Assembly (NCBI RefSeq): GCF_007671685.1
Contig: NZ_VCNL01000005.1
Span: forward strand, 248,001 to 312,000
From: Halorubrum salsamenti
GTDB taxonomy: Archaea; Halobacteriota; Halobacteria; Halobacteriales; Haloferacaceae
DNA length: 64,000 bases
Direction: 5' to 3'
In this document: one piece after another, positions 11,385 through 59,318 of the stretch
Numbering within the stretch: position 1 is the stretch's first letter
How the letters are laid out: every line of letters starts with the position of its first letter
The notes under the pieces: model-generated
The model's input: only the letters and a program-made list of their open reading frames with translations
What the model was told of the DNA's origin: nothing
Database searches by the model: none
Made by a program: the position numbers and the translations under genes

Positions 11385-11659
11385 GCAACCGACTGGGAGA
11401 CCGAACAACGCTCCCAAAGCGTGTGCGGTTAGCTGGATATAGGCGCTAAGCCCCCACCCTCAACGGAGCGACCGAAGGGAGCGGAGTAGGGTGGGGATAC
11501 AGCGTCCCCAGAAATCGAAGATTTCTGGTGTGCGAACGAGACGCGGAGCGTCTCGTCAACGCCGTCATCATCTGTTCATACAGCGATACGGTTGCAGGCC
11601 CACAGACCCACGTAGTCGCAACGTTTTTCATTGGGGTACCGTACAACAGTACGAACCCA

Positions 11660-12067
11660 ATGGAATACGACCTCGATTCGGGAGCGCATTCGACGTACTC
11701 CCTGCACTACCACCTGATACTCACTACGAAGTATCGGCGCGGAGTGCTAACCGAGGAGCGAACCCAATTCATTCGCGGGGTCATCAGCGGGTTCACGGAT
11801 AAGTACGGCGTCGAACTGACGAACCTCGACGGAGAGGACGACCACGTTCACATCCTGTTCCGAGCGAAACCAACCACAGACCTCGTGAAGTTCATCAACA
11901 CGGTCAAGGGCGCGACCGCCCGCCGTATCCGCAACGAGTACGAGGACGAACTGAAAACCGAACTGTGGGGCGACTCGTTCTGGAACGACTCGTACTGCCT
12001 CGTCTCGACGGGGCAGGTGTCTCTGGACGTGCTGAAACAGTACGTCGAAGACCAGCGGGAGAGCTGA
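11660..12067 (+). CDS. tnpA: IS200-type Y1 transposase TnpA
   Basis: A 135-residue HUH single-strand transposase. It has the DDHVHILF metal-binding HUH motif (His-x-His), and a catalytic Tyr near the C-terminus in LDVLKQYVEDQ. The start is taken at the ATG at 11660, since MEYDLDSGAHSTYSLHYHL fits the family N-terminus; longer in-frame versions run back into the left end. It looks intact. Its stop overlaps the tnpB ATG (TGATG). Confidence 0.92.
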   Translation: MEYDLDSGAHSTYSLHYHLILTTKYRRGVLTEERTQFIRGVISGFTDKYGVELTNLDGEDDHVHILFRAKPTTDLVKFINTVKGATARRIRNEYEDELKTELWGDSFWNDSYCLVSTGQVSLDVLKQYVEDQRES

Positions 12068-33042: not shown

Positions 33043-34428
33043 TTACTCGTCACCGTACTCGTTCTCGTCCATCGCACACTCGTTGGCCGGGTAGGCGTCG
33101 CACTCGTACACGAGCGGGTCGGTCGTCTCCATCACCTCGGTCCGAATGCCGATCTCCTCGGCCGTGGCGTCGTCGACGCCCTGTACGAGGTGCCACGGGC
33201 GCTCGACCTGGTGGTCGCACTCCCGGAACTGGGACGGCCCCCACGCCTGCTCCCAGTCGAACTCCTCGAGGGTCCGCACGACCGTCGGCGGGTGGAACGT
33301 GCCCGCCTCTTCGACGGCGGCCGCGTACACCAGCATCGACTCGTAGGTGTGAAGCGAACTCTGGTTGGGGATCTCGTCGTACTCGCTCTGGTACGCCTCG
33401 ACGAAGGTGTTCGACGCCTCGTTGTCGTAGTTCGGGTTCCACGGCTCCATGCCGTAGACACCCTCGGCGTCGGACCCCATGGGGTCGAGGGTGAACGCGC
33501 TGACGTGCGGGATGAACACGTCGACGTCCTCGGTGACTCCGGCGTCGACCATCTGTGAGAGCCCGCTGGCCGCGAACTCGCCGAAACTGGCGAAGTGGAC
33601 AACGTCGGCGCCCGAATCCTGAAGGTCCTGTATCTGCGTCTGGTGGTCGCTTTCCCCCTCGGCGATCGCCGAGCCGCCGGCGTCTTCCCACGGTCCGTTC
33701 TCCGTGAGGTGGGTGCGCATGGCGTCGCGGTTCGACTGACCGTAGGAGTAGTCCATGTAGATATGGAACAGCTCCCGGTCCTCGCCGAGCGCCTCGGGAA
33801 GCAGGTTTCCGGCGGCCATCCCGATGATCTCCGCGTGGAAGGTCGGGTGGAAGTAGTACCGCGAGCAGTTCTCCCCGCTGATCCCGGCCGACGTGGAGTT
33901 CCCGCCCATGAACGGGACCTTCTCCCGCTGGGCGACGTCTTGCATCGCGAGAGTCACCGTACTGGACATGCCGCCGGTCCAGAACTGGATGTTATCCTGC
34001 TGGATCATCCCGTTGATATTGGAATTCGCCGTGTCGGGATCCCCACCGGTGTCGGCCTTCGTCGGTTCGATCTGGTACCCGAGAATGCCGTCGCCGCTCA
34101 GCGCGTCCCAGGTGTCGACCAACCCGCCGCCGTTGTTCAGGTGTTGGACCGCGAGATCGAACCCCAGCTCCTGGTCTTGACCGTCCGGGCCGAGCGCGCC
34201 GGACAGCGGGCCGTTGAATCCGATTGCAACGGTGTCTCCCTCCGGGGGGAAGTTCCCGATCGGTTCGTACTCTCCGTCGCTACCGTCGCTACCGTCGCTA
34301 CCGTCGCTGCCGTCGCCCCCGTCGCCGCCTCCAGTACAGCCGGCGAATCCGGCGGTGAGACCGCCGGCCGCGAGGCCTTTGAGGTAGCGACGTCGAGACT
34401 CGTCTCCAGGTTCACGTTTGTCTGTCAT
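33043..34428 (-). CDS. ABC transporter substrate-binding lipoprotein (LivK-like)
   Basis: A 461-residue Peripla_BP_6-type binding protein. The Tat motif SRRRYLKGLAAGG and lipobox GFAGC give a membrane-anchored external protein. A Gly/Asp/Ser linker made of four DGS units follows. The core has IGFNGPLSGALGPDGQ and GGMSSTVTLAMQDVAQREKVPFMGG, typical of Liv receptors. Ligand residues cannot be assigned. The neighbours (Tm-1-like protein, PEP-hydrolase-like protein, cupin, IclR) argue for a carboxylate or sugar-derived substrate, but this is a guess. Confidence 0.88.
   Translation of the reverse strand: MTDKREPGDESRRRYLKGLAAGGLTAGFAGCTGGGDGGDGSDGSDGSDGSDGEYEPIGNFPPEGDTVAIGFNGPLSGALGPDGQDQELGFDLAVQHLNNGGGLVDTWDALSGDGILGYQIEPTKADTGGDPDTANSNINGMIQQDNIQFWTGGMSSTVTLAMQDVAQREKVPFMGGNSTSAGISGENCSRYYFHPTFHAEIIGMAAGNLLPEALGEDRELFHIYMDYSYGQSNRDAMRTHLTENGPWEDAGGSAIAEGESDHQTQIQDLQDSGADVVHFASFGEFAASGLSQMVDAGVTEDVDVFIPHVSAFTLDPMGSDAEGVYGMEPWNPNYDNEASNTFVEAYQSEYDEIPNQSSLHTYESMLVYAAAVEEAGTFHPPTVVRTLEEFDWEQAWGPSQFRECDHQVERPWHLVQGVDDATAEEIGIRTEVMETTDPLVYECDAYPANECAMDENEYGDE
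34274..34316. repeat. 9-bp tandem repeat coding for a DGS linker
   Basis: CTACCGTCG-type 9-mers repeat about four times inside the binding-protein gene. They encode the flexible linker between the lipobox and the folded domain, and their number is likely to vary among strains. Confidence 0.7.
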
Positions 34429-49776: not shown

Positions 49777-49826
49777 GGAGGGTGTCGGCGGGGGTCTCTC
49801 GCTCCGATTGTATCGGAGCGAACGAG

Positions 49827-50271
49827 CGATAACGGGAGTACGTATATCGAGTTGCCTCGGTGGTTGTTTATAAGTGGGCGAGCGATGCTGCTAGCGGCTG
49901 TTTATAGGTGATCGACGGCTCTGCGGTGAAGGCTTCCAAAGCCCCAGTCGCTGAGGACGGCGCACGCTCGCTGCGCGCCTCACTCGGTCGCTAACGCTCC
50001 CTCGTTGCGGTGCTTACGTCGCCTGCGCCGCCCTCAGCGACTGCCCCTTAGAATCCCACCCGCCCCGCAACCGCACAGCCTCACGCCTCCCCAGCCTCGT
50101 CGCTGGCGCCGACGGCGCCAGCGACTCCCTCGCACCGTCGGTTCGCGGCCCGGAGAGCCGCGAACCGGGGCGCGCCACCGGACTCTATTTATAAGCGATC
50201 GTCGCCGTGGTTCATGGTCGTTTAAATATCGAACTACCGCCACCAATCTGCAACACCCACTCCCGTCATCG
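49827..50271. repeat. MITE-like multi-hairpin repeat, copy A
   Basis: Terminal inverted repeats CGATAACGGGAGT (49827) and ACTCCCGTCATCG (50259-50271) match at 12 of 13 bases. Inside are TTTATAAG-type TATA motifs near both ends, CAGTCGCTGAGG pairing with CCTCAGCGACTG, a perfect hairpin on GTCGCTGGCGCC/GGCGCCAGCGAC, and another on GGTTCGCGGC/GCCGCGAACC. A second copy with the same layout lies at 58038. No protein is evident. This fills the space between cbaE and copA. Confidence 0.75.
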
Positions 50272-50316
50272 TTTACGAGACGCCGTTCAGCGGTCCGCCG
50301 TTTCGCGGGGCCGCCC

Positions 50317-52887
50317 TCACAGCACCGATCGCGTCGAGTTCGTCACGACGATGCCGCTGCTGGCGGCCATCGCCAGCGCGGCGAAGAAGGGATTGAGCGC
50401 CCCCGCGACCGCGAGCGGGATCGCCACCGCGTTGTAACACAGCGCCCACGCCACGTTCTCGCGGATGCGCCGCCGCGTCCCGGCCGCGAGGTCGAACACG
50501 GTCTCGATCGCTCGGAGGTCCCCGCCCGTTATCACGACGTCCGCGGCCTCGACGGCGCGCGCCGTTCCGTCGCCCATCGCGATCCCGAGATCGGCCGCCG
50601 CGAGCGCGGGCGCGTCGTTGGTCCCGTCGCCGACCATCACGGTGGTCCCGGAGGCGGCGAACCCGCGGACCGCTTCGAGCTTTCCGTTCGGCGGCACGCC
50701 GGCGAAGACCTCGTCCACAGCGGGATGGTCTCGAAACCGGTCGGCCCGAGGGCCTTCGTCCCCGGTCAGGACGGCCACCTCCCGATCGGCGAACGCGTCG
50801 AGCGCCGCGTCCCACCCCTCCCGTTCGCGGTCCTCGACCGCGATCACGCCGCGGGCCGCGCCGTTCCACCCCACGACGACCGGGAGCGCGCCCCGATCCG
50901 TGACGGCGTCGACGCGCTCTCGCAGGCCCCCCGGAATCGGACCGCACTCGCGGGCGACCAACTCGGCGGTCCCGACGACGACGCGCGGGCCGGTCCTTCC
51001 CGGATCTGAGTCGTTGCGGGCGGCGGGGACAAGATCCCCCGAAACCCCCGAGCCGGGATAACGGGTGAACGACTCCACCCGCGTCCCCTCGGGGAGGTCG
51101 TCGGTCACCGGTCGGTCGTCAGCCGTCGGCTGGCCGTCGGCCCTCGACGGATCGCCGGTCGCCGCCTCCCGGATCGCGTCCGCGACGGGGTGGTCGGCGC
51201 GGCGTTCGATCGCGGCGGCGCGGCGGAGCGTCCGGTCGTCGCCGTGCGTCTCGCTGACGCGCATCTCCCCCGCAGTGAGGGTCCCGGTCTTATCGAACAC
51301 GACCGTCTCGGCCTTCCGAGCGACCTCGAACACCGAGGCGTCCGTGACGACCACGCCGCGGTCGAGCGCGTCGCGGAGCCCGCCGGAGACGGCGAGCGGG
51401 GTCGCGAGTCCCATCGCGCACGGACAGGAGACGACGAGGACGGTCAGTCCGGCGAGCATCGCGGCGGCGACCGTTCCGCCGGTCGCGAGCCGCCAGCCGG
51501 CGACGAGGAGCCCGAGCGTCAACACGACCGGCACGAATATCGTCGCGAGCGCGTCGACGAACCGCTGGATCCCCGGGGTGGCGGTCTGGACCTCCCAGAG
51601 CGCGGCGGCGAGCCGGTCCGCGGTGCTCTCCGCGTTCTCGCCGACCCGCATCACGATCGCGCCGGCCGATTCATCTCCTTCGGCCTCCATCTCGTCGACT
51701 TCTCTTCCGTCGACCACCCCGCCGTCGGCCGCTCGGCCGTCGCCGAGGAGCGTCGCGCCGCCGATCACGGTCTCGCCGGGTCCCTTTCGCACCGGGAGCG
51801 ACTCCCCGGTGATCACGGACTCGTCGACGTCGGCGGTCCCCTCGATCACGGTGCCGTCGATCGGCACGCGTTCGCCGGGCGTGATCCGGACCCGGTCGCC
51901 CGGTTCGAGGTCCGCGATCGGGACGGTCTCCGACCCCGTGTCGGTTACCCGCGTCGCCGACTCGACGCGGGCGGCCGTGACGGTTTCGAGGAGGTCGTTC
52001 GCCCGCGACCGGACTCGCTCCTCGTAGTGCCGGCCGAGCGAGACGACCATCACGACGGCGACCGTGACGTCGTAGTACAGGTGCGTACTGCCGGTCGCGA
52101 GCGCGAGGGTGCTGTACGCATACGCGGACAGCGCGGCGACCGCGACGAGCAGGTCCATGTTCGGCCGACGCGCCCGAACGCTCACGTACGCGCCGCGGAG
52201 CAGCGGCGCCCCCGTGTACGCCAGCAGGACGGTCGTCAGGAGCGCGATGAACGCCAGCGGCAGATACCGTCCCACGGCGGTGGTGGTGTCGATCGCGAGG
52301 ACGTTCGTCTCGATGCCGAGGTAGCTCGGATACAGCGACAGGACGTACCACGGCATTATCAGCATCGCGAGGAAGCCGCCGACGACGAGCCGTTCGACCG
52401 TGCGATCGTCCGAACGCGTCCGCGCGCGATCGTCTCCGATCGTCCGGCCGTCGTCCGTCGCCGATTCGTCCCGAAACCGGAGCGTGTAGCCGTAGCCGGA
52501 GAGCGACTCCGGGAGCTCCCCTCGTTCGATCTCCTCCGGATCGTAGACGACCCGGACGGTCTCGGTGCCGTAGTTCGCCTCCACCGCACGAACTCCCCGA
52601 CAGTCGTCCCCCCGCAGTCCGAGGAACGTCTCGCAGGTCGTACAGTGCATCCCGTCGACCGCCAGATAGGCCTCGGCGGCGTCCGGCGGGAGCGTCCTCC
52701 CGGCGGCCGCCCGGTCGCTTCCGGTCGTCGTATCACCGATCTCTCCCACCCCCGTCTCGGCGTCGCCCACGTCGTCGAGTCGACGGGCCACCTCCAGGCA
52801 GCCGCGACAGCAGAACCCGCCGTCGACGTCGGCCGCACTGACGGGTGGGTCCGGGGTCGGGAGGTCACAGAGCCGACAGTCGCCCAT
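50317..52887 (-). CDS. Copper-transporting P1B-type ATPase with FixI-like N-terminus
   Basis: An 856-residue heavy-metal ATPase. An N-terminal four-cysteine zinc-ribbon-like module (CRLCDLPTP, then FCCRGC) precedes an HMA domain (GMHCTTC). Eight membrane helices, the metal-site CPC in VVSCPCAMGLATP, the phosphorylation motif DKTGTLT and MVGDGTNDAPAL follow. The N-terminal ribbon is typical of FixI/CcoI/CtpA-type pumps that deliver copper to oxidases, so it probably loads the adjacent ba3 oxidase or the multicopper oxidase. The ATG at 52887 (MGDCRLCD) is chosen over 52908, because the CGAAC box then lies at the standard 40 bases. Confidence 0.88.
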   Translation of the reverse strand: MGDCRLCDLPTPDPPVSAADVDGGFCCRGCLEVARRLDDVGDAETGVGEIGDTTTGSDRAAAGRTLPPDAAEAYLAVDGMHCTTCETFLGLRGDDCRGVRAVEANYGTETVRVVYDPEEIERGELPESLSGYGYTLRFRDESATDDGRTIGDDRARTRSDDRTVERLVVGGFLAMLIMPWYVLSLYPSYLGIETNVLAIDTTTAVGRYLPLAFIALLTTVLLAYTGAPLLRGAYVSVRARRPNMDLLVAVAALSAYAYSTLALATGSTHLYYDVTVAVVMVVSLGRHYEERVRSRANDLLETVTAARVESATRVTDTGSETVPIADLEPGDRVRITPGERVPIDGTVIEGTADVDESVITGESLPVRKGPGETVIGGATLLGDGRAADGGVVDGREVDEMEAEGDESAGAIVMRVGENAESTADRLAAALWEVQTATPGIQRFVDALATIFVPVVLTLGLLVAGWRLATGGTVAAAMLAGLTVLVVSCPCAMGLATPLAVSGGLRDALDRGVVVTDASVFEVARKAETVVFDKTGTLTAGEMRVSETHGDDRTLRRAAAIERRADHPVADAIREAATGDPSRADGQPTADDRPVTDDLPEGTRVESFTRYPGSGVSGDLVPAARNDSDPGRTGPRVVVGTAELVARECGPIPGGLRERVDAVTDRGALPVVVGWNGAARGVIAVEDREREGWDAALDAFADREVAVLTGDEGPRADRFRDHPAVDEVFAGVPPNGKLEAVRGFAASGTTVMVGDGTNDAPALAAADLGIAMGDGTARAVEAADVVITGGDLRAIETVFDLAAGTRRRIRENVAWALCYNAVAIPLAVAGALNPFFAALAMAASSGIVVTNSTRSVL

Positions 52888-52926
52888 CACTCGCGATCGG
52901 TCGGCCACCCACGAGTCCCTGTCCGC

Positions 52927-52936
52927 GAACGTGTTC
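52927..52936. promoter_or_regulatory. CGAAC box upstream of copA-like gene
   Basis: CGAACGTGTTCG (52926-52937) is symmetric in GAAC/GTTC. Its near edge is 40 bases before the ATG at 52887. Confidence 0.65.
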
Positions 52937-52980
52937 GGGCCTTCGCCGGAATAAAAAGGCGGCCCGGTCGCGGGTCGATC

Positions 52981-54078
52981 TCAGAACGGGGCGTTCGGTT
53001 CCTCGGAGACGCTCGATTCGCCGCCGCTCGACGCCGACTTACCGACCAGTACGCGGAACTCCCCGGGGTCTTGTTTGCGGTACTCCCAGTAGAACGCCGG
53101 TCCGGCCTCGGCGTCGAACTGGTGGTACAGCGGCTTCGGGTCGTGGTCGTTCACCAGGACGAACCCCTCGCCGTCGTCGAGGTCCGCGTACGCCTCGAAG
53201 ATCTGTTCGTGGCGCTGAGCGGGTGGAAGATCGCGGACGTCGAGTTCCCTCGTGGCCTCGGGCGTCTCGTCGGCAGTGCCCTCCTCATCAGCCGCGCGCT
53301 CCGCGTCAGCCGCGCTCTCCTCATCAGCCGCGCTCCCCACGTCCCCGGACGAGGAGTCCGCCCGTTCGGTCTTCGTGATCCGGACGCGGCAGCGACCGGG
53401 CTGCTTTTCCACCACCTCCCAGTCGAACGCGTCGCCGTACCGCTCTCGAAACTCGCCGTGGAGCGGTCGCGGCTCGTGCGGGGCGATGAGCTCCATCGCC
53501 TCCCCGTCGGGTATCATGCCGTATCGGTGGTGGATCGTCTCGTGACGGTCCGGTTTGGGGATCTCACGAACGTCGTATCGCGTGATCACGTCCTCGTCAT
53601 CGGCCGTCGATGCGTCCGTTTTCACGATCTCGACTCGCCATCCGCCCGATCCGCGACTCGCGTACTCCCACTCGACGACGTCGCCGTGCATCGAGCGAAG
53701 CTCGTAGTAGAGCGGCTTCGGGTCGTGGTCGTTCACCAGGACGAACCCCTCGTCCGGTTCGAGGCGGTCGAACGTGTCGAGCAACACCTCGTGTCGCCGC
53801 TGGGGTATCAGGTCACGCACGTCGAACGTCCCCAACTCACCGTCACCGAGCGGTTCCCGTTTGGACACCCGAACCTCGCGCGGTTCCGCGTCGGGATCCT
53901 CGTGGTCCCAGTCGAGGGCGCGGTCCCGTTCGATCTGATACCGGATGAGATGCGCGTCGATATCTCGATCGGCGATAACGAGAACTTCGGCATCCGTCTC
54001 GGTCTCGTCGAGCGCTCCGTAGATCCGTTCGTGAAACTCGCGAGGCGAGTGATCCCGCAGATCGATTTCAGTAACCAT
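52981..54078 (-). CDS. Four-repeat DUF2249 protein
   Basis: A 365-residue protein of about four DUF2249 units. Units 2 and 4 carry the near-identical block DEGFVLVNDHDPKPLYYEL / GEGFVLVNDHDPKPLYHQF; unit 3 has EAMELIAPHEPRPLHGEF; unit 1 is degenerate (VLVIADRDIDAHLIRYQI). A Ser/Ala/Asp/Glu linker with imperfect repeats separates units 3 and 4. DUF2249 proteins resemble the TusA/SirA fold and often accompany denitrification and low-oxygen genes; their role is not established. The ATG at 54078 lies 44 bases from a CGAAC box. Confidence 0.85.
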   Translation of the reverse strand: MVTEIDLRDHSPREFHERIYGALDETETDAEVLVIADRDIDAHLIRYQIERDRALDWDHEDPDAEPREVRVSKREPLGDGELGTFDVRDLIPQRRHEVLLDTFDRLEPDEGFVLVNDHDPKPLYYELRSMHGDVVEWEYASRGSGGWRVEIVKTDASTADDEDVITRYDVREIPKPDRHETIHHRYGMIPDGEAMELIAPHEPRPLHGEFRERYGDAFDWEVVEKQPGRCRVRITKTERADSSSGDVGSAADEESAADAERAADEEGTADETPEATRELDVRDLPPAQRHEQIFEAYADLDDGEGFVLVNDHDPKPLYHQFDAEAGPAFYWEYRKQDPGEFRVLVGKSASSGGESSVSEEPNAPF

Positions 54079-54121
54079 TCTCGGATCGATCACGGCCGCG
54101 AAGAGGGATGGTCTCTCAGCC

Positions 54122-54131
54122 GAACGCGTTC
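54122..54131. promoter_or_regulatory. CGAAC box upstream of the four-repeat DUF2249 gene
   Basis: CGAACGCGTTCG (54121-54132) is a perfect palindrome. Its GAAC edge is 44 bases before the ATG at 54078. Confidence 0.65.
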
Positions 54132-54165
54132 GGGATATGCACTAAACGAGACGGGCCCGGGGAAT

Positions 54166-54176
54166 GAACTATGTTC
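54166..54176. promoter_or_regulatory. Variant box (three-base spacer) upstream of the SRPBCC gene
   Basis: GAAC-TAT-GTTC, flanked by T and A to give 13-bp symmetry. It ends 51 bases before the ATG at 54227. The arms match the CGAAC boxes but the spacer is one base longer. Confidence 0.4.
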
Positions 54177-54226
54177 ACCACTCCAGCACAGGGGTCTCGG
54201 TCGCTCCCCGAAGGAAATCCGGACCC

Positions 54227-54637
54227 ATGAATTCGGTGACGCTTTCGCGAACGATCGACGCACCTCCGGCCGTGGTCCGCGAATCGATGAACGAACTCGA
54301 GCAGTTCATGCGAGCGTCGGGCTTCGACGAGGTTCTCGTCGACGGCGAAACGGTCTGCGTCGCGAACGAGGTGGGGATCGCGACGATCGAACTCACGCTC
54401 GAACTCGTCGACCGTCCTGAAGCCGACCTCGCCTACGAACAGCGTGAGGGCATCTTCGAGGAAATGCGGACAGCGTACACCGTCACACCGGCACCCAACG
54501 GGAGCGAGGTGGTCGCGACGACGGAGTTCGCGCTCGACGTTGCGATCGTCGGGGACGTACTCGACTCGACGGTCATCAAACGCCAACGGCGAAGGGAACT
54601 CTCGGCCCAGTTCGACTGGCTTGAAGGGGTCGTGTAA
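54227..54637 (+). CDS. SRPBCC/START-like small protein
   Basis: A 136-residue protein with the SRPBCC start pattern (VTLSRTIDAPPAVVRESMNELEQFM), alternating strands in the middle (TIELTLELVDRPEADLAYEQREG) and a C-terminal helix. It is a ligand-binding fold; the ligand is unknown. The ATG at 54227 (MNSVTLSRTID) is chosen as the family-like start. It is divergent from the DUF2249 gene and probably shares its control region. Confidence 0.7.
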   Translation: MNSVTLSRTIDAPPAVVRESMNELEQFMRASGFDEVLVDGETVCVANEVGIATIELTLELVDRPEADLAYEQREGIFEEMRTAYTVTPAPNGSEVVATTEFALDVAIVGDVLDSTVIKRQRRRELSAQFDWLEGVV

Positions 54638-54879
54638 CCCGTCGCTCTTTCGTCTTTCCGCGTTTCTACAAGAGAGCGACACAAAGAGCAGCCGATGTCC
54701 GCCGGGGTGACCCCGAGACGTTGCCATGTGCGCCGAAACGGTCGCCGACCACAAGAAGCGCGAGGCCCTCCCGGGAAGAGACAGACCAACACGAACCGGA
54801 GGAACGGTACCCGTCCCGTTTCGGTCGTTTGTTCGGCGCGTAACATATGGTACGTGAGCACATAGCGCCGAACAGCGCA
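54638..54879. other. Spacer of 242 bases without a convincing gene
   Basis: A 43-codon ORF starts at 54726 (MCAETVADHKKREAL) but has no recognisable features or box upstream. Confidence 0.3.
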
Positions 54880-55380
54880 ATGTCCCAGCTACGAACTCAC
54901 AGCGTGCCCGACGAGATCGACCCGAACGAGTGGACGCTCCGAGTCACCGGTGCGGTTTCCGAACCGCTTCGCGTCAAGCGAGGGGAGCTGTCGGAGTTTC
55001 CCCTCGAGACGGTTACGGAGGACTTCGAGTGCGTCGAGGGCTGGATCGCAGAGGGTCTGTCGTGGCGAGGAATACGCGTCGGGTCGGTTCTGAACCGCGC
55101 CGCCCCCGAAGCTGATGCAGACTACGTGCTCGTCCGCTCGATGGACGGCGAGTACGCCTGTTCGTTCCGGAGGGATCGCGTGGCCGACGCGCTCCTCGCG
55201 GTCGAACTCGGCGATCGGCCCCTTCCCGTGGAACACGGTGGGCCGGCCCGACTCGTCCCGACCACCGGCGACTCGGACTGCTGGGAGAGCGTCAAGTGGG
55301 TGACGGCGCTGGAGGTGCGTCGCTCGGAGCCCGTTGTCGACGACACCGCCGAGAACATAGCAACCGGCAGACTGGAGTGA
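54880..55380 (+). CDS. Molybdopterin-dependent oxidoreductase, sulfite-oxidase fold (single domain)
   Basis: A 166-residue Oxidored_molyb domain. The block DFECVEGWIAEGLSWRGI contains the probable Mo-coordinating Cys51; ARLVPTTGDSDCWESVKWV near the end is the usual family finish. It has no signal peptide and is shorter than sulfite oxidases, so it is a cytoplasmic, stand-alone domain. The substrate is unknown. The ATG at 54880 follows the family N-terminus better than 54847. Confidence 0.83.
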   Translation: MSQLRTHSVPDEIDPNEWTLRVTGAVSEPLRVKRGELSEFPLETVTEDFECVEGWIAEGLSWRGIRVGSVLNRAAPEADADYVLVRSMDGEYACSFRRDRVADALLAVELGDRPLPVEHGGPARLVPTTGDSDCWESVKWVTALEVRRSEPVVDDTAENIATGRLE

Positions 55381-55486
55381 CGGTCCGGTACTTTGTCCAC
55401 TCGGTCCCCATCCGAAGAGTGATCAGCGGTCACGGGAGCGGTCCCAGTCAAATCCTCGTTCGTCACAAATCGTTGGTACCAACGCC

Positions 55487-56158
55487 TTAACTGTCGGTTT
55501 TCTCATCGGGTTCGAACCCGATCGGATTCCGAGGGAGATCGTCGACGAACTCTCGGACGATCGTCCGTTCGACGCGCTGGAGAACTTCGCTGCACGTGGA
55601 TTTCGCGATCCCGACGTGCTCGGCCACCTCGGTTAGCGTGCAGGTGCGTGGCACGTCGTAGTAGCCGCGATCGACCGCCTCGAACAGCACCTCTCGCTGC
55701 CGTTCAGTGAGCGACTCTCCCGGGTTCAACCGCTGTTGAACGTACTCGACGTCGAACTCCGCACCGACGGCCCGGAGCATCTCCCCGAAGTCGGCGATGC
55801 GGTCGTGGGCGCCGGTGATGTCGATCCGGGCCACGCCGTTCTCTATCTCGACGGGCATCTCGATGGGGATCCCGGCCTGCCGTGCGGCCGCCATCAACAA
55901 CGGTGCGTGCGCCTCGACGTGAACGGTGGCGACCCCGTCACTCAACGCCATGACCGAGACTTCCTCGATCGTGTCGTGGACCTCTATCGCGTCCAGTATG
56001 TCGTCCATATCGTCAGCGGAGATCTTCACGAGCGCGAACCCCGCACCGTCTCCGGGGGTCGCACTGAGTACCTGGATCCGCGCCTCCGGGAACTCCCGAG
56101 AGACCTCGCCGACCCACGGTCCATCCGGGAGATCAACGTTGAGTCGAGCCTGTGCCAT
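55487..56158 (-). CDS. HTH_10 (Bat-like) transcriptional regulator
   Basis: A 223-residue haloarchaeal regulator. The C-terminal HTH_10 domain contains LTERQREVLFEAVDRGYYDVPRTCTLTEVAEHVGIAKSTCSEVLQR. The N-terminal ~150 residues form an input domain with no PAS or GAF signature and no cysteine cluster. DmsR and NarO belong to this broad class, but NarO has a Cys-rich N-terminus that is lacking here. It is a candidate reader of the CGAAC boxes by position only, and it has no box of its own. Confidence 0.8.
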   Translation of the reverse strand: MAQARLNVDLPDGPWVGEVSREFPEARIQVLSATPGDGAGFALVKISADDMDDILDAIEVHDTIEEVSVMALSDGVATVHVEAHAPLLMAAARQAGIPIEMPVEIENGVARIDITGAHDRIADFGEMLRAVGAEFDVEYVQQRLNPGESLTERQREVLFEAVDRGYYDVPRTCTLTEVAEHVGIAKSTCSEVLQRVERTIVREFVDDLPRNPIGFEPDEKTDS

Positions 56159-56362
56159 ACCGACCGTTCGCTGTCACGGGGGAAATGGATTCGTCTTCGC
56201 GTCCCGATCAGAGGAGGGACGGGTTCGTCAAATTGGAGACGGTCGGAAACTCTCGCGTGGATGTGGACGGGTGCCGCTTCGTATCTCACGGCGTGAGAGT
56301 CGTCCTATCCCTTTACGGCCTTCTGCGGAGGTATTAGAACACGCATCGGAATTTCGATTAGC

Positions 56363-56650
56363 ATGACAAACACAAAATCAGCGATAGCCGTTACGTTTAC
56401 TCCGCAAGAATGGGTCGACGCACCGTTCCACCTAGACGACGGGGCAGACAAACAGCTGACTCCCGCCGAAAACCGGGACCCAGTGACGTTCGAAGTGCCC
56501 TGGGAAGACGGAACTGACGGAGAGAGAGCCGTGTTCCCGGACAAATCGTACGAGGCGAATCAGCTGCAATCGCACCCTGCAGCCCCGGAATGGGTCCGAA
56601 ATTGGGACGGGCCATACTACGTTCGGACAAAGTTGGTTGACGACGAGTAA
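56363..56650 (+). CDS. Hypothetical acidic protein
   Basis: A 95-residue unrecognised protein with several tryptophans (QEWVDAPF, VPWEDGTDG, EWVRNWDGPYYVRTKL). The acidic character and codon use are those of its neighbours. It lies upstream of a membrane protein in the same direction (52-base gap), so they may form an operon. Confidence 0.55.
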   Translation: MTNTKSAIAVTFTPQEWVDAPFHLDDGADKQLTPAENRDPVTFEVPWEDGTDGERAVFPDKSYEANQLQSHPAAPEWVRNWDGPYYVRTKLVDDE

Positions 56651-56701
56651 CGGCCAACGGACAGAGTAGACCAAGTTCCTCGAGAATAGCAGAAATGAAG
56701 C

Positions 56702-57919
56702 ATGGCCGCTGAGATATCGCGCTGGTCGCGTCGATACGTTCTCGTCGGGGTACTCGCGCTCTGTTGCTGGCAGGTGGCCACGGTCGCCGGCCTCCCGCGA
56801 CGCACGACGGTGACGTTGGGCGTGTTCGGGTTCGTGTTCCAAATCGTGTTCGGCAAAGCCTACGCCCTCGTGCCGGCGTATTTCGACGTCGATCTCGTCT
56901 TCGAGCACGCCCCGATGATCCAGTTTCCCTTCGTCGTTACGGGGGCTGCGTGTCTCGCGCTCGACCCGCTTCTCGTTCGTCGCTTCCGTGTCGACCTCGG
57001 CGTTCTCGGCGGTGTGCTCTGGACGGTCGGCGTCGTCGTGTTTATCGGAGCGCTCGCACTGACGATCGGCGGACCGCTCCGACACGGGACGACTGGGACC
57101 GGAGAGCACAACGCCGACCGGCGGCCGCTCGACCGGTTCGCGAACCGCTTCGTCCCCATCGTCCTCCTGTATCTCCTCGTCGGTAGCTACGAGACCGTCG
57201 CCGGGCAGGCGAGCGCGCTCCCGCCACTGATCGGCGTCCGGGCCGCCGCGACGCATCTCTTGGCCGCCGGCGCCGCGACGTTGCTCGTGGTCACGCTCGG
57301 CTTTCGACTGCTTCCGCGGTTCCTCGGCGCACGTCCGACTCGATCGTCGGCCGCCCTCGTCCTACCCGTCACCGCGACTGCACCCGGGATCATCGCCGGC
57401 GGGTTCGTCGACGATCGATGGCTCCCACTCGGTGCCGCATTGATGGTGATCGCGATGGTCGGCTTCGCGCTCGTCGTCTCCGGAATGTGGTTCCAGTCCG
57501 ACAAACGCCGAATCGGATTGTACGCCCTTCTCCCAAGCGCGACGTTCGGCGTTATCGGCGTCCTTTTCGGCGGTCTCTTCGCGGTCGGGGGCGCGTCTCC
57601 GGCGTTGATCGAGACCCACCTCCGGGTCAACCTGCTCGGCTTTCTCGGCCTGATGATCGTCGGAACCTCGTTCCAGTTCTATCCGCCGCGGCTGGGCGCG
57701 TTTCCCGGGTCGTCGAACCGTTCCGCGAGCGTAGCGATCGCCGCGCTCGCTTGCGGACTCGGGATCGAGGTCCTCGGTGTCGCTGCGATCGCCGTCTTCG
57801 ATCCCGCGACGGCGTCTCTTTCGACACGAGCGAGCGCTTTCGGTCGTTGGCTCACGCTCTTCGGTGCGTTCGGGTACGCGTACCTCATCGCGAGCGTGTT
57901 CAGGACCCGAGCGACCTGA
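56702..57919 (+). CDS. Polytopic membrane protein, heme-copper subunit-I/NnrS-like
   Basis: A 405-residue protein with about 12 hydrophobic helices. Histidines in membrane segments (FEHAPMIQFPFV, ATHLLAAGAATLL, IETHLRVNLLGFLGLMIVG) and the FQFYPP motif recall subunit-I-like and NnrS-type proteins. It shares this general plan with the protein at 62613-63971. A role in NO handling or heme binding is possible but not shown. It lies next to the second hairpin repeat. Confidence 0.65.
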   Translation: MAAEISRWSRRYVLVGVLALCCWQVATVAGLPRRTTVTLGVFGFVFQIVFGKAYALVPAYFDVDLVFEHAPMIQFPFVVTGAACLALDPLLVRRFRVDLGVLGGVLWTVGVVVFIGALALTIGGPLRHGTTGTGEHNADRRPLDRFANRFVPIVLLYLLVGSYETVAGQASALPPLIGVRAAATHLLAAGAATLLVVTLGFRLLPRFLGARPTRSSAALVLPVTATAPGIIAGGFVDDRWLPLGAALMVIAMVGFALVVSGMWFQSDKRRIGLYALLPSATFGVIGVLFGGLFAVGGASPALIETHLRVNLLGFLGLMIVGTSFQFYPPRLGAFPGSSNRSASVAIAALACGLGIEVLGVAAIAVFDPATASLSTRASAFGRWLTLFGAFGYAYLIASVFRTRAT

Positions 57920-58037
57920 TCTCCTCGATCAACGTGGTCCGTGTCGAATCGGCCTGTCCAAACGGGCGGTTCCATTGAAATAGTTTTCAGATGGCACGTA
58001 TCGCCCGAATGTGGTCAATACAGACACAGCAGCGATT

Positions 58038-58480
58038 GATAGCGGGAGTAGGTATAGCACGTTGTGAGTGTGGTCGTTTATAAGTGATCGAGTAGTGTTG
58101 CTGGCGCTGATTTATAAGTGATCGACGACTTCGCCGTGAAGGCGTCCAAAGCCCCAGCCGCGACGGCTCGCGCGGCTCGATGCGCTCCTCGATCGCTCAC
58201 TTCGTTCGCGGTCTGCGGTGCTTTCGTCGCCGTGCTTCGCCCTCGCGACTGCCCCTTTGAGTCCCACCCGCCCGCAACCGCACAGCGCCTCCCGCCTCCC
58301 CAGCCTCGTCGCTGGCGCCGTCGGCGCCAGCGACGCCCTCGCACCGGCGGCTCGCGGCCTATCGGCCGCTCACCGGGGCGCGCCAACCGCATCGGGGTTT
58401 ATAAGCGATCGTCGATGGCGCTCACGATCGTTTAAATACTGAATCGTTGCTACCGATTTGCTTCACTTACTCCCGCTATC
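58038..58480. repeat. MITE-like multi-hairpin repeat, copy B
   Basis: Perfect 13-bp terminal inverted repeats GATAGCGGGAGTA (58038-58050) and TACTCCCGCTATC (58468-58480). The interior follows copy A in order: two TTTATAAGTGATCG motifs, CCAAAGCCCCAG, the GTCGCTGGCGCC hairpin, a TTTATAAGCGATCGTCG motif and TTTAAAT. Same orientation as copy A and 443 bp long. It occupies most of the gene-free span 57920-58525. Confidence 0.78.
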
Positions 58481-58525
58481 GATCAAGAAGCTGCCTTCAG
58501 CGACTGGCCGCTCGTCGGCCTCCGA

Positions 58526-58831
58526 CTACTCGTCGGACCGAGACGCCAAGACGATCAGTGCGGTGCTCTCCTCGACGGCACGGGGAGCGATCTCTTGGTC
58601 GCCGTCGAAGCGAGCCACGTCGCCTGCCGACAGCTCGTGTGTCTCGCCGTCGAGTTCCAACTCTATCGTCCCCTCGACGAGATGGAACACGATCTCGCGG
58701 TCGGGGTGCGAGTGAGGCGCGACTTCGCCGCCCGCGTCGAGAGTGAGTCTGATCGTCTTCGGTTCAGCGTCGGGGAAGACGTTGGCGTGGGGCCGTCCGT
58801 CCAGTTTGCCGAGGCTGTGTATCGTCGTCAT
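58526..58831 (-). CDS. Cupin-domain protein (second in operon)
   Basis: A 101-residue cupin. Motif 1 APHSHPDREIVFHLVEGTIEL has the His-x-His and Glu metal ligands; the second motif (GDVARFDGDQEIAPRA) lacks the usual His. Its start overlaps the preceding cupin gene by 4 bases. Function unknown; such cupins often accompany multicopper oxidases or nitrite/NO genes in haloarchaea. Confidence 0.78.
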   Translation of the reverse strand: MTTIHSLGKLDGRPHANVFPDAEPKTIRLTLDAGGEVAPHSHPDREIVFHLVEGTIELELDGETHELSAGDVARFDGDQEIAPRAVEESTALIVLASRSDE

Positions 58832-59208
58832 GTATCGGTCGGATCGAACTCGTCGGTTCGGAGTCCCCGGCGGACCGGTTCGTGTTCGGCATCGGTCGGC
58901 GGCGGAGCGGTGACGAGCAGCGCTTCGAGCCGCGAGTCGTCGTCGGCCTTGACACCGCGATCGGTGTCCGCTCCGACGGTCACGACGTCTCCCGGTGCGA
59001 CGCGGTGTTCCTCATCGCCGTCGCGGACGAGCCCGGTGCCGGAACGAACGTCGATCACCACGTCGCTGGACGGGGCGTGAACCGGGATGAACTGTCCCGG
59101 TTCGAAGTAGCCGCAGACGACTTTCATCCGCTCGCTCCGGAACACTTCGACCGCCGAGAACTTCTCGTCGTCGTACGTCCGTTCCCCGTCGAAATCGATT
59201 GCTGTCAT
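58828..59208 (-). CDS. Cupin-domain protein (first of pair)
   Basis: A 126-residue cupin-like protein (GQFIPVHAPSSDVVIDVRSGTGLV, then APGDVVTVGADTDRGVKA). Only one of the usual two His of motif 1 is present, so metal binding is doubtful. Its ATG overlaps the stop of a 37-codon ORF by 4 bases (ATGA) and its end overlaps the next cupin, giving a three-gene coupled unit. Confidence 0.75.
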   Translation of the reverse strand: MTAIDFDGERTYDDEKFSAVEVFRSERMKVVCGYFEPGQFIPVHAPSSDVVIDVRSGTGLVRDGDEEHRVAPGDVVTVGADTDRGVKADDDSRLEALLVTAPPPTDAEHEPVRRGLRTDEFDPTDT

Positions 59209-59318
59209 ACTGAATCACCCAGTCGACAGATTCCACAGTCGTTCGATCGGGCGGCCAGTCGCGTGATGGCGGCCGATGACTCGGCCGTTCGACTTATTTT
59301 AGGTTTGCCTAAACTCAT
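59205..59318 (-). CDS. Overlooked 37-residue ORF at the head of the cupin operon
   Basis: A minus-strand ORF starting MSLGKPKISRTAESS and ending NDCGICRLGDSV. Its TGA overlaps the cupin ATG (ATGA). A CGAAC box ends 42 bases before its ATG (59318), matching the 39-44 base spacing of the other promoters, whereas the cupin start is 152 bases away. A CxxC pair sits near the C-terminus. Against it: the ORF is short, and a TTTAGG-CCTAAA palindrome lies within its first codons. An ATG at 59324 is an alternative start. Confidence 0.45.
   Translation of the reverse strand: MSLGKPKISRTAESSAAITRLAARSNDCGICRLGDSV
59298..59313. promoter_or_regulatory. Iron-box-like palindrome TTTAGG-N4-CCTAAA
   Basis: TTTAGGTTTGCCTAAA resembles the DtxR/SirR/Idr-type iron-dependent sites found before haloarchaeal iron-uptake genes. 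It lies 90-105 bases before the first cupin, inside the small ORF. Confidence 0.5.

Follow-up and report, generated by a model that had tools for sequence, protein, structure and literature searches.

Introduction

Several described systems of repeated or invertible DNA come close to the element reported here. Miniature inverted-repeat transposable elements (MITEs) and other non-autonomous insertion sequences (ISs) of the IS5 family are short, encode no protein, share their ends and 8-bp duplications with an autonomous relative and lie between genes, mostly at gene 3′ ends. Invertons, such as the fimS type or those of the gut (PMC11892184), are segments of a few hundred base pairs between short inverted repeats and are found in both orientations. 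In archaea, inversion can be catalysed by site-specific recombinases, and chromosomes can be inverted through mobile copies, as described in the parts of a review of archaeal tyrosine recombinases (PMC8371274) that deal with such events. Lastly, repetitive extragenic palindromic sequences, bacterial interspersed mosaic elements (REP/BIME) and other intergenic palindromic repeats are high in copy number, form hairpins and are enriched at gene 3′ ends. Here we analyse a structured, non-coding element that is present in two copies, A and B, in a 64,000-nucleotide stretch of the Halorubrum salsamenti genome (contig NZ_VCNL01000005.1, positions 248,001 to 312,000; hereafter the window).

The reading towards which we lean, without holding it firmly, is that of a nested element: an IS5-type MITE carrying a cassette that inverts and exchanges its content by means of a site-specific recombinase acting in trans. 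A wider claim, which we advance tentatively, is that a trans-acting site-specific recombination system operates throughout the genus Halorubrum, riding on IS5-type MITEs and acting as a hub for chromosome rearrangement, and that in each genome it continually flips and exchanges non-coding cassettes at dozens of fixed positions. The element was not found described in the open literature on repeats in Halorubrum, MITEs in haloarchaea and invertons in archaea (subscription journals were outside the search).

Results

In what follows, G000 is the genome of the window (3.67 Mb), other G and L labels denote related genomes and fetched loci, and copies were sampled by search and by genome stretches. 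From outside to inside, the element starts with a 15-bp outer end, GGCTCTGTTGAAATC, followed by a subterminal stretch of about 55 bp, either L-type or R-type; next come a 20-bp inner site, ACNNACTCCCGNNATCGNTC, two TATA-like boxes spaced by 34 bp, stem 1 with its CCC x CCC internal loop, a pyrimidine-rich linker, stem 2, stem 3, a third TATA-like box with TTTAAATA, the inverted inner site and, finally, the other subterminal sequence and outer end. The cassette between the inverted inner sites measures 440 bp and holds no protein. Within the inner site ACTCCCG and TC are invariant and the positions between them are free; this pattern is the same at both ends of 92 copies and extends to positions outside the selection motif. 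Left and right site variants are uncorrelated, and by this absence of correlation a mutual cis-correction of the paired sites was ruled out.

The central observation is the orientation of the cassette at orthologous loci. Copies were paired between genomes through their unique flanks, using strict site classes and excluding composite (double-core) loci. Loci with both inner sites comprised 7 inverted and 7 same-orientation cases, against 0 inverted and 10 same among loci without sites (Fisher p = 0.019, by locus; this count pools pairs sharing a locus, adds L004-L036 from an earlier comparison and takes L010-L209 as the L152-L209 locus). Counting partly preserved sites as well gave 9/18 inverted versus 0/12 (p = 0.004), and counting by pair gave 7/17 versus 0/10 (p = 0.026). 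In the aligned inverted pairs, the flanks are collinear up to the inner site, the cassette is reversed and the flanks are collinear again. At the copA locus, for instance, where copy A lies, the cassette is forward in G000 and in G014 (L141/L402), inverted in L142/L403 and L144/L405, and absent in five. Both R-left and L-left arrangements are common among all site-bearing copies. The cleanest evidence for in-place inversion is the pair L180-L204: these orthologs are inverted, and across genomes the cassette of each finds its best match in the other. We hypothesize that, once inserted, the cassette flips in place via crossover inside the inverted inner sites, where the breakpoints are located. 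Within approximately 6-12% sequence divergence, orientation has become random at sites whose position is otherwise stable.

The repeats are members of a large family and not a product of chance, because copy A has at least 48 matches in its own genome (E <= 0.01; 40/203 candidates scored), the exact core pattern CAAAGCCCC-N80..108-GCCCCTTTG matches 42 times in G000 (134 in G014 and 99 in G003) with 0 matches for the reversed pattern, and the inner-site pattern has 103 matches in G000 versus 4 for a control. The core was found in 22/22 Halorubrum congeners searched, and beyond the genus in only two weak matches. The repeat family supposed by the original prediction is therefore borne out, since further copies in haloarchaeal genomes are many and the argument from their absence fails. 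Judged by the gene adjoining the element, the nearest named relatives are Halorubrum sp. CSM-61 (L141) and Hrr. salipaludis (L142). A phage search with the element returned 0 matches and a plasmid search only fragments of 50-140 bp; the viral contigs L397-L400 have one exact inner site apiece and no pair. Twenty more site-bearing loci in G000 proved to be the same element or deleted and decayed forms of it, down to 163 bp.

Two variants of the family were seen along the way. Loci L018, L020, L025, L035 and L052 have a core without inner sites, preceded by tandem units of about 57 bp, each holding a TTTATAAA-like box and CCAAAGCCCCAGCCGC. Loci L021, L024, L047, L248 and L347, which are common to different species, have two divergent cores that lie several hundred base pairs apart and enclose conserved sequence.

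The carrier, about 590 bp long, is a MITE of the IS5 type, because its outer ends and 8-bp duplications are common to an autonomous IS5-family element. A MITE had been proposed originally, and correctly so; however, the inverted repeats seen at that stage bound the inner cassette, and the actual ends of the MITE (GGCTCTGTTGAAATC, with 8-bp duplications) are found about 70 bp beyond them. L037 is a complete copy of 588 bp, with both outer ends matching at 15/15 positions and a 7/8 duplication. Overall, 8-bp flanks match at 6/8 or more positions in 7/17 copies with both outer ends, where about 0.07 would be expected (binomial estimate), and sibling elements with the same ends and other cargo show perfect 8-bp duplications in L118, L136, L137 and L040. 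The autonomous partner (L383) is 1355 bp long, with the same ends, a perfect AGATATGT duplication and an IS5-family transposase inside (NF033579, 216 bits; cut-off 140). A transposase 95% identical to the query transposase, with its frame intact, is found at G000:C20:30759-31586, and a left outer end sits 44 bp upstream of the matched frame in G000. At the copA locus of L141 there is a second insertion, a sibling element with the duplication GCGATCTC/GCGATCCC. Empty orthologous sites are provided by five congeneric copA loci, with a spacer of 30-144 bp and no element at all. An IS5-family transposase, one that leaves 8-bp target duplications, would have mobilised the MITE with its 15-bp ends in trans.

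Elements with the same IS5-type ends also carry genes: a RidA/L-PSP protein (PF01042) in L137 (1469-2036) and small membrane proteins in L040 (2015-2756), L102 (1469-2185) and L141 (about 11400-12030). Such siblings could spread genes among Halorubrum species.

A different account of the two orientations is that the cassette is a second transposon, which enters a fixed pad (ATCGAT) at the centre of old MITEs either way round, independently in each species. This would account for species-specific subfamilies, random orientation and sharp boundaries, and ATCGAT can be read as a palindromic target duplication. However, an 80-bp joined R-L query detected no empty pad in 52 congeneric genomes, the empty copA orthologs are without the whole MITE and not the cassette alone, complete copies of MITE plus cassette have one common duplication, and the L180/L204 cassettes are inverted yet mutual best matches across genomes. 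We regard independent insertion as very improbable.

Cassettes also share content across loci. Five G000 cassettes are 98% identical, although an ungapped comparison finds their outer flanks to be unrelated. Left and right alike, identity runs at 0.90-1.0 within the cassette, drops to 0.73 over the outer half of the site and is 0.17-0.39 further out, and the homogenised tracts extend to the inner site at 10/10 ends examined. At least two of these five sites (L004, L008) are occupied in other species as well, so the sites are older than their content. In most cases the ortholog of a cassette ranks no higher than its paralogs do (e.g., 23/98 and 44/66), with exceptions such as L180-L204. Comparison of orthologous loci, together with breakpoints at the sites, suggests that content may be swapped with sister copies at other loci by crossover inside the inner sites. 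Separately, the flanks of L003 and L026 in G000 are exchanged relative to G003 and G014 (L056, L203, L249), a between-species chromosome rearrangement with its breakpoints at two element copies.

The likeliest agent of both flipping and swapping would be a putative site-specific recombinase that acts in trans. We favour a specific activity because the site pattern is fixed, its left and right variants are uncorrelated, and the hairpin arms, which are inverted repeats too, longer and closer, rarely flip: an atypical or inverted loop was seen in only 2/138 aligned copies. On the other hand, several points weigh against a dedicated recombinase and in-place inversion. None of the 14 Phage_integrase (PF00589) matches in the genome is near a site, so that the candidates are numerous, and no recombinase is linked to one; site-bearing loci and pattern searches yielded no autonomous version with inner sites; and the inner site is without a clear dyad, unlike what is expected of a tyrosine recombinase. 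Ortholog numbers are small, the compared pairs are not fully independent, and the site-bearing class is defined by at most 4 mismatches to the consensus, which favours conserved sites. Both orientations appear here between species only and not within one living population. Finally, ordinary homologous exchange also contributes, as is evident from mosaic cassettes (L016).

Such mosaics are likewise expected under a generic route, in which homologous or microhomology recombination, or template switching, between the 20-bp repeats would need no dedicated enzyme and homogenisation would be gene conversion in polyploid, recombination-prone haloarchaea. Inverted repeats do exist, stem loops are occasionally inverted, chromosome rearrangement breakpoints fall at copies, and stem arms covary nearly without G-U pairs, as quasi-palindrome correction predicts. 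However, flipping is far less frequent at the stem arms, which are nearer and longer repeats, than at the inner sites; the base pattern of the sites stays the same from copy to copy with no left/right correction; and tracts reach the site at every end examined, where random conversion should sometimes end earlier. We therefore consider the generic route unlikely, though a serious competitor, and continue to prefer the site-specific recombinase. Regarding the stem loops themselves, that of stem 1 is seemingly reversed between its arms in G014:C7:134043 and in G003 at C23:62473, C87:7935, C90:66213 and C102:83606 (by eye, on partial sequences), possibly a second, rarer level of inversion.

The conservation of the hairpins has its own interpretation. 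In stem 1, compensatory double changes occur in 20/30 predicted pairs (37 sequences), so the covariation on which the idea of a structured repeat depended is present and refutation by its absence fails. Its paired cells comprise 1030 Watson-Crick, 11 G-U (11/1041) and 43 mismatched. The element is structured, as was originally suggested; the RNA part of that suggestion is weakened, since wobble pairs are so few that maintenance at the DNA level, by palindrome correction or protein binding, is inferred to be at least as likely. A conserved small-RNA family, i.e., a promoter followed by a three-hairpin RNA at many loci with mobility being incidental, would agree with TATA-like boxes suitably spaced before the hairpins, with the strong covariation of stem 1 and with presence in all 22 congeners first searched. 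However, no Rfam match to the elements was obtained, wobble pairs make up about 1% of paired cells, and random orientation and overwriting of content would be odd for a functional RNA. We find this explanation rather improbable. Within the window, Rfam gave a sub-threshold guanidine-III riboswitch match inside a gene (53717-53777, reverse strand; 23.1 bits, cut-off 36), which is probably due to chance.

Placement relative to genes was informative about possible function. The 86 placed copies with inner sites have 42 convergent, 37 codirectional and 7 divergent gene neighbours, compared with 5, 20 and 6, respectively, for the spaced gene junctions of the window background (simple gene caller). 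Since the cassette flips and its TATA-like boxes point outward from one end, an invertible promoter switch governing neighbour genes by phase variation could be imagined. However, only 7/86 copies lie between divergent genes, both window copies lie between convergent ones, and orientation relative to genes is not significantly biased (23 vs 14). A general role as promoter switch is unlikely, judging from this arrangement, because copies are usually at gene 3′ ends with convergent placement dominant; we give the switch hardly any credence and regard the cassette as mainly a selfish, tolerated element.

Copies A and B stand in direct orientation, 445 bp each, with 77% identity over about 465 bp. 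Most of what had been predicted for them was recovered: both exist where they had been placed, in the same orientation, with inverted repeats at the termini of each, TATA-like TTTATAAG boxes at both ends, three internal hairpins, a stem-2 hairpin (GTCGCTGGCGCC/GGCGCCAGCGAC) nearly unchanged between copies, and no credible gene in either. Their extent is slightly wider when the full 20-bp sites are included (49824-50274 and 58034-58484). The proposal that recombination between them could delete the 7.8-kb segment in between fared worse. No relative was found with both copies flanking the segment or joined, copies vary in their orientation relative to each other, and the copy B site is unoccupied in 8/8 related cupin loci inspected (synteny not assured); as this site is empty in relatives, the comparison does not establish that the segment between the copies is an old unit.

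All features are on the forward strand except the two left inner sites. The invertible cassette of copy A (49824-50274, from inner site to inner site) is the one inverted or empty at the same locus in relatives. Its left inner site, ACGTACTCCCGTTATCGCTC, occupies 49824-49843 on the reverse strand and its right one, ACCCACTCCCGTCATCGTTT, 50255-50274 (inner-site pattern matches G000:C17:297824-297843 and 298255-298274). The left TATA-like boxes, found as direct repeats and conserved in the family alignment, are TTTATAAG at 49867-49874 and, as the second box, TTTATAGG at 49901-49908; the right box, TTTATAAG, at 50188-50195, came from the repeat search and is also conserved. Stem 1 spans 49937-50051 (inverted repeat and covariation), with CAAAG/CTT outer pairs, the CCC x CCC internal loop and arms at 49945-49967 and 50021-50043; stems 2 (50099-50125) and 3 (50139-50167) are inverted repeats. 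A decayed remnant of an R-type MITE end lies outside at 50275-50309, collinear in L141, L142 and L144.

The cassette of copy B, delimited by alignment, repeats and site pattern, covers 58034-58484, with left inner site ACCTACTCCCGCTATCAATC at 58034-58053 on the reverse strand and right inner site ACTTACTCCCGCTATCGATC at 58465-58484 (inner-site pattern matches G000:C17:306034-306053 and 306465-306484). Stem 1 lies at 58147-58259 (core-pattern match G000:C17:306147-306259; covariation) and stem 2 at 58307-58335 (inverted repeat). To the left is an L-type MITE end (57968-58033) whose outer repeat, GGTTCCATTGAAATA, read directly, has 4/15 mismatches; to the right, comparison with L- and R-type flanks identified a truncated R-type end (58485-58509). 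Neither window copy has kept its outer ends intact, with those 4 mismatches left of copy B and unrecognisable ends elsewhere, and no target duplication is detectable around either. The cupin region next to copy B (58520-59210) has a second copy, 92% identical and without the element, at G000:C3:3602-4292 (L431). Elsewhere in the window, CCGTCGCTA forms a tandem repeat of 5.8 copies at 34274-34325.

Discussion

If a recombinase acts on these sites, Halorubrum would possess a native multi-locus system of inversion and cassette exchange, of possible use as a genetic tool, and the same activity would also account for chromosome rearrangements that break at copies. If, alternatively, the mechanism is generic, the elements would report naturally on recombination between inverted repeats in polyploid archaea.

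Compared with MITEs and IS5-family ISs, whose general features it shares, the element described here differs in that the cassette inside it, bounded by inverted sites of its own, would flip and swap between loci, and many copies of the core exist without MITE ends. Passenger-carrying non-autonomous ISs have a parallel in the siblings with the same ends (RidA/L-PSP in L137, membrane proteins in L040, L102 and L141), whereas the window copies hold a non-coding structured cassette. In contrast to invertons, the one site recurs at dozens of loci per genome, no recombinase is linked to it and the location is mostly not upstream of genes; moreover, content would swap between loci, and inversion is seen between species and not in reads. 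The tyrosine-recombinase inversions of archaea treated in those parts of PMC8371274 are driven at att sites by integrases of viruses or plasmids, or else are homology-length events, and such a multi-copy cassette is not among them. Finally, the element resembles REP/BIME and similar palindromic repeats in abundance, intergenic location and hairpins, but it is much longer and has defined end sites, TATA-like boxes and MITE ends.

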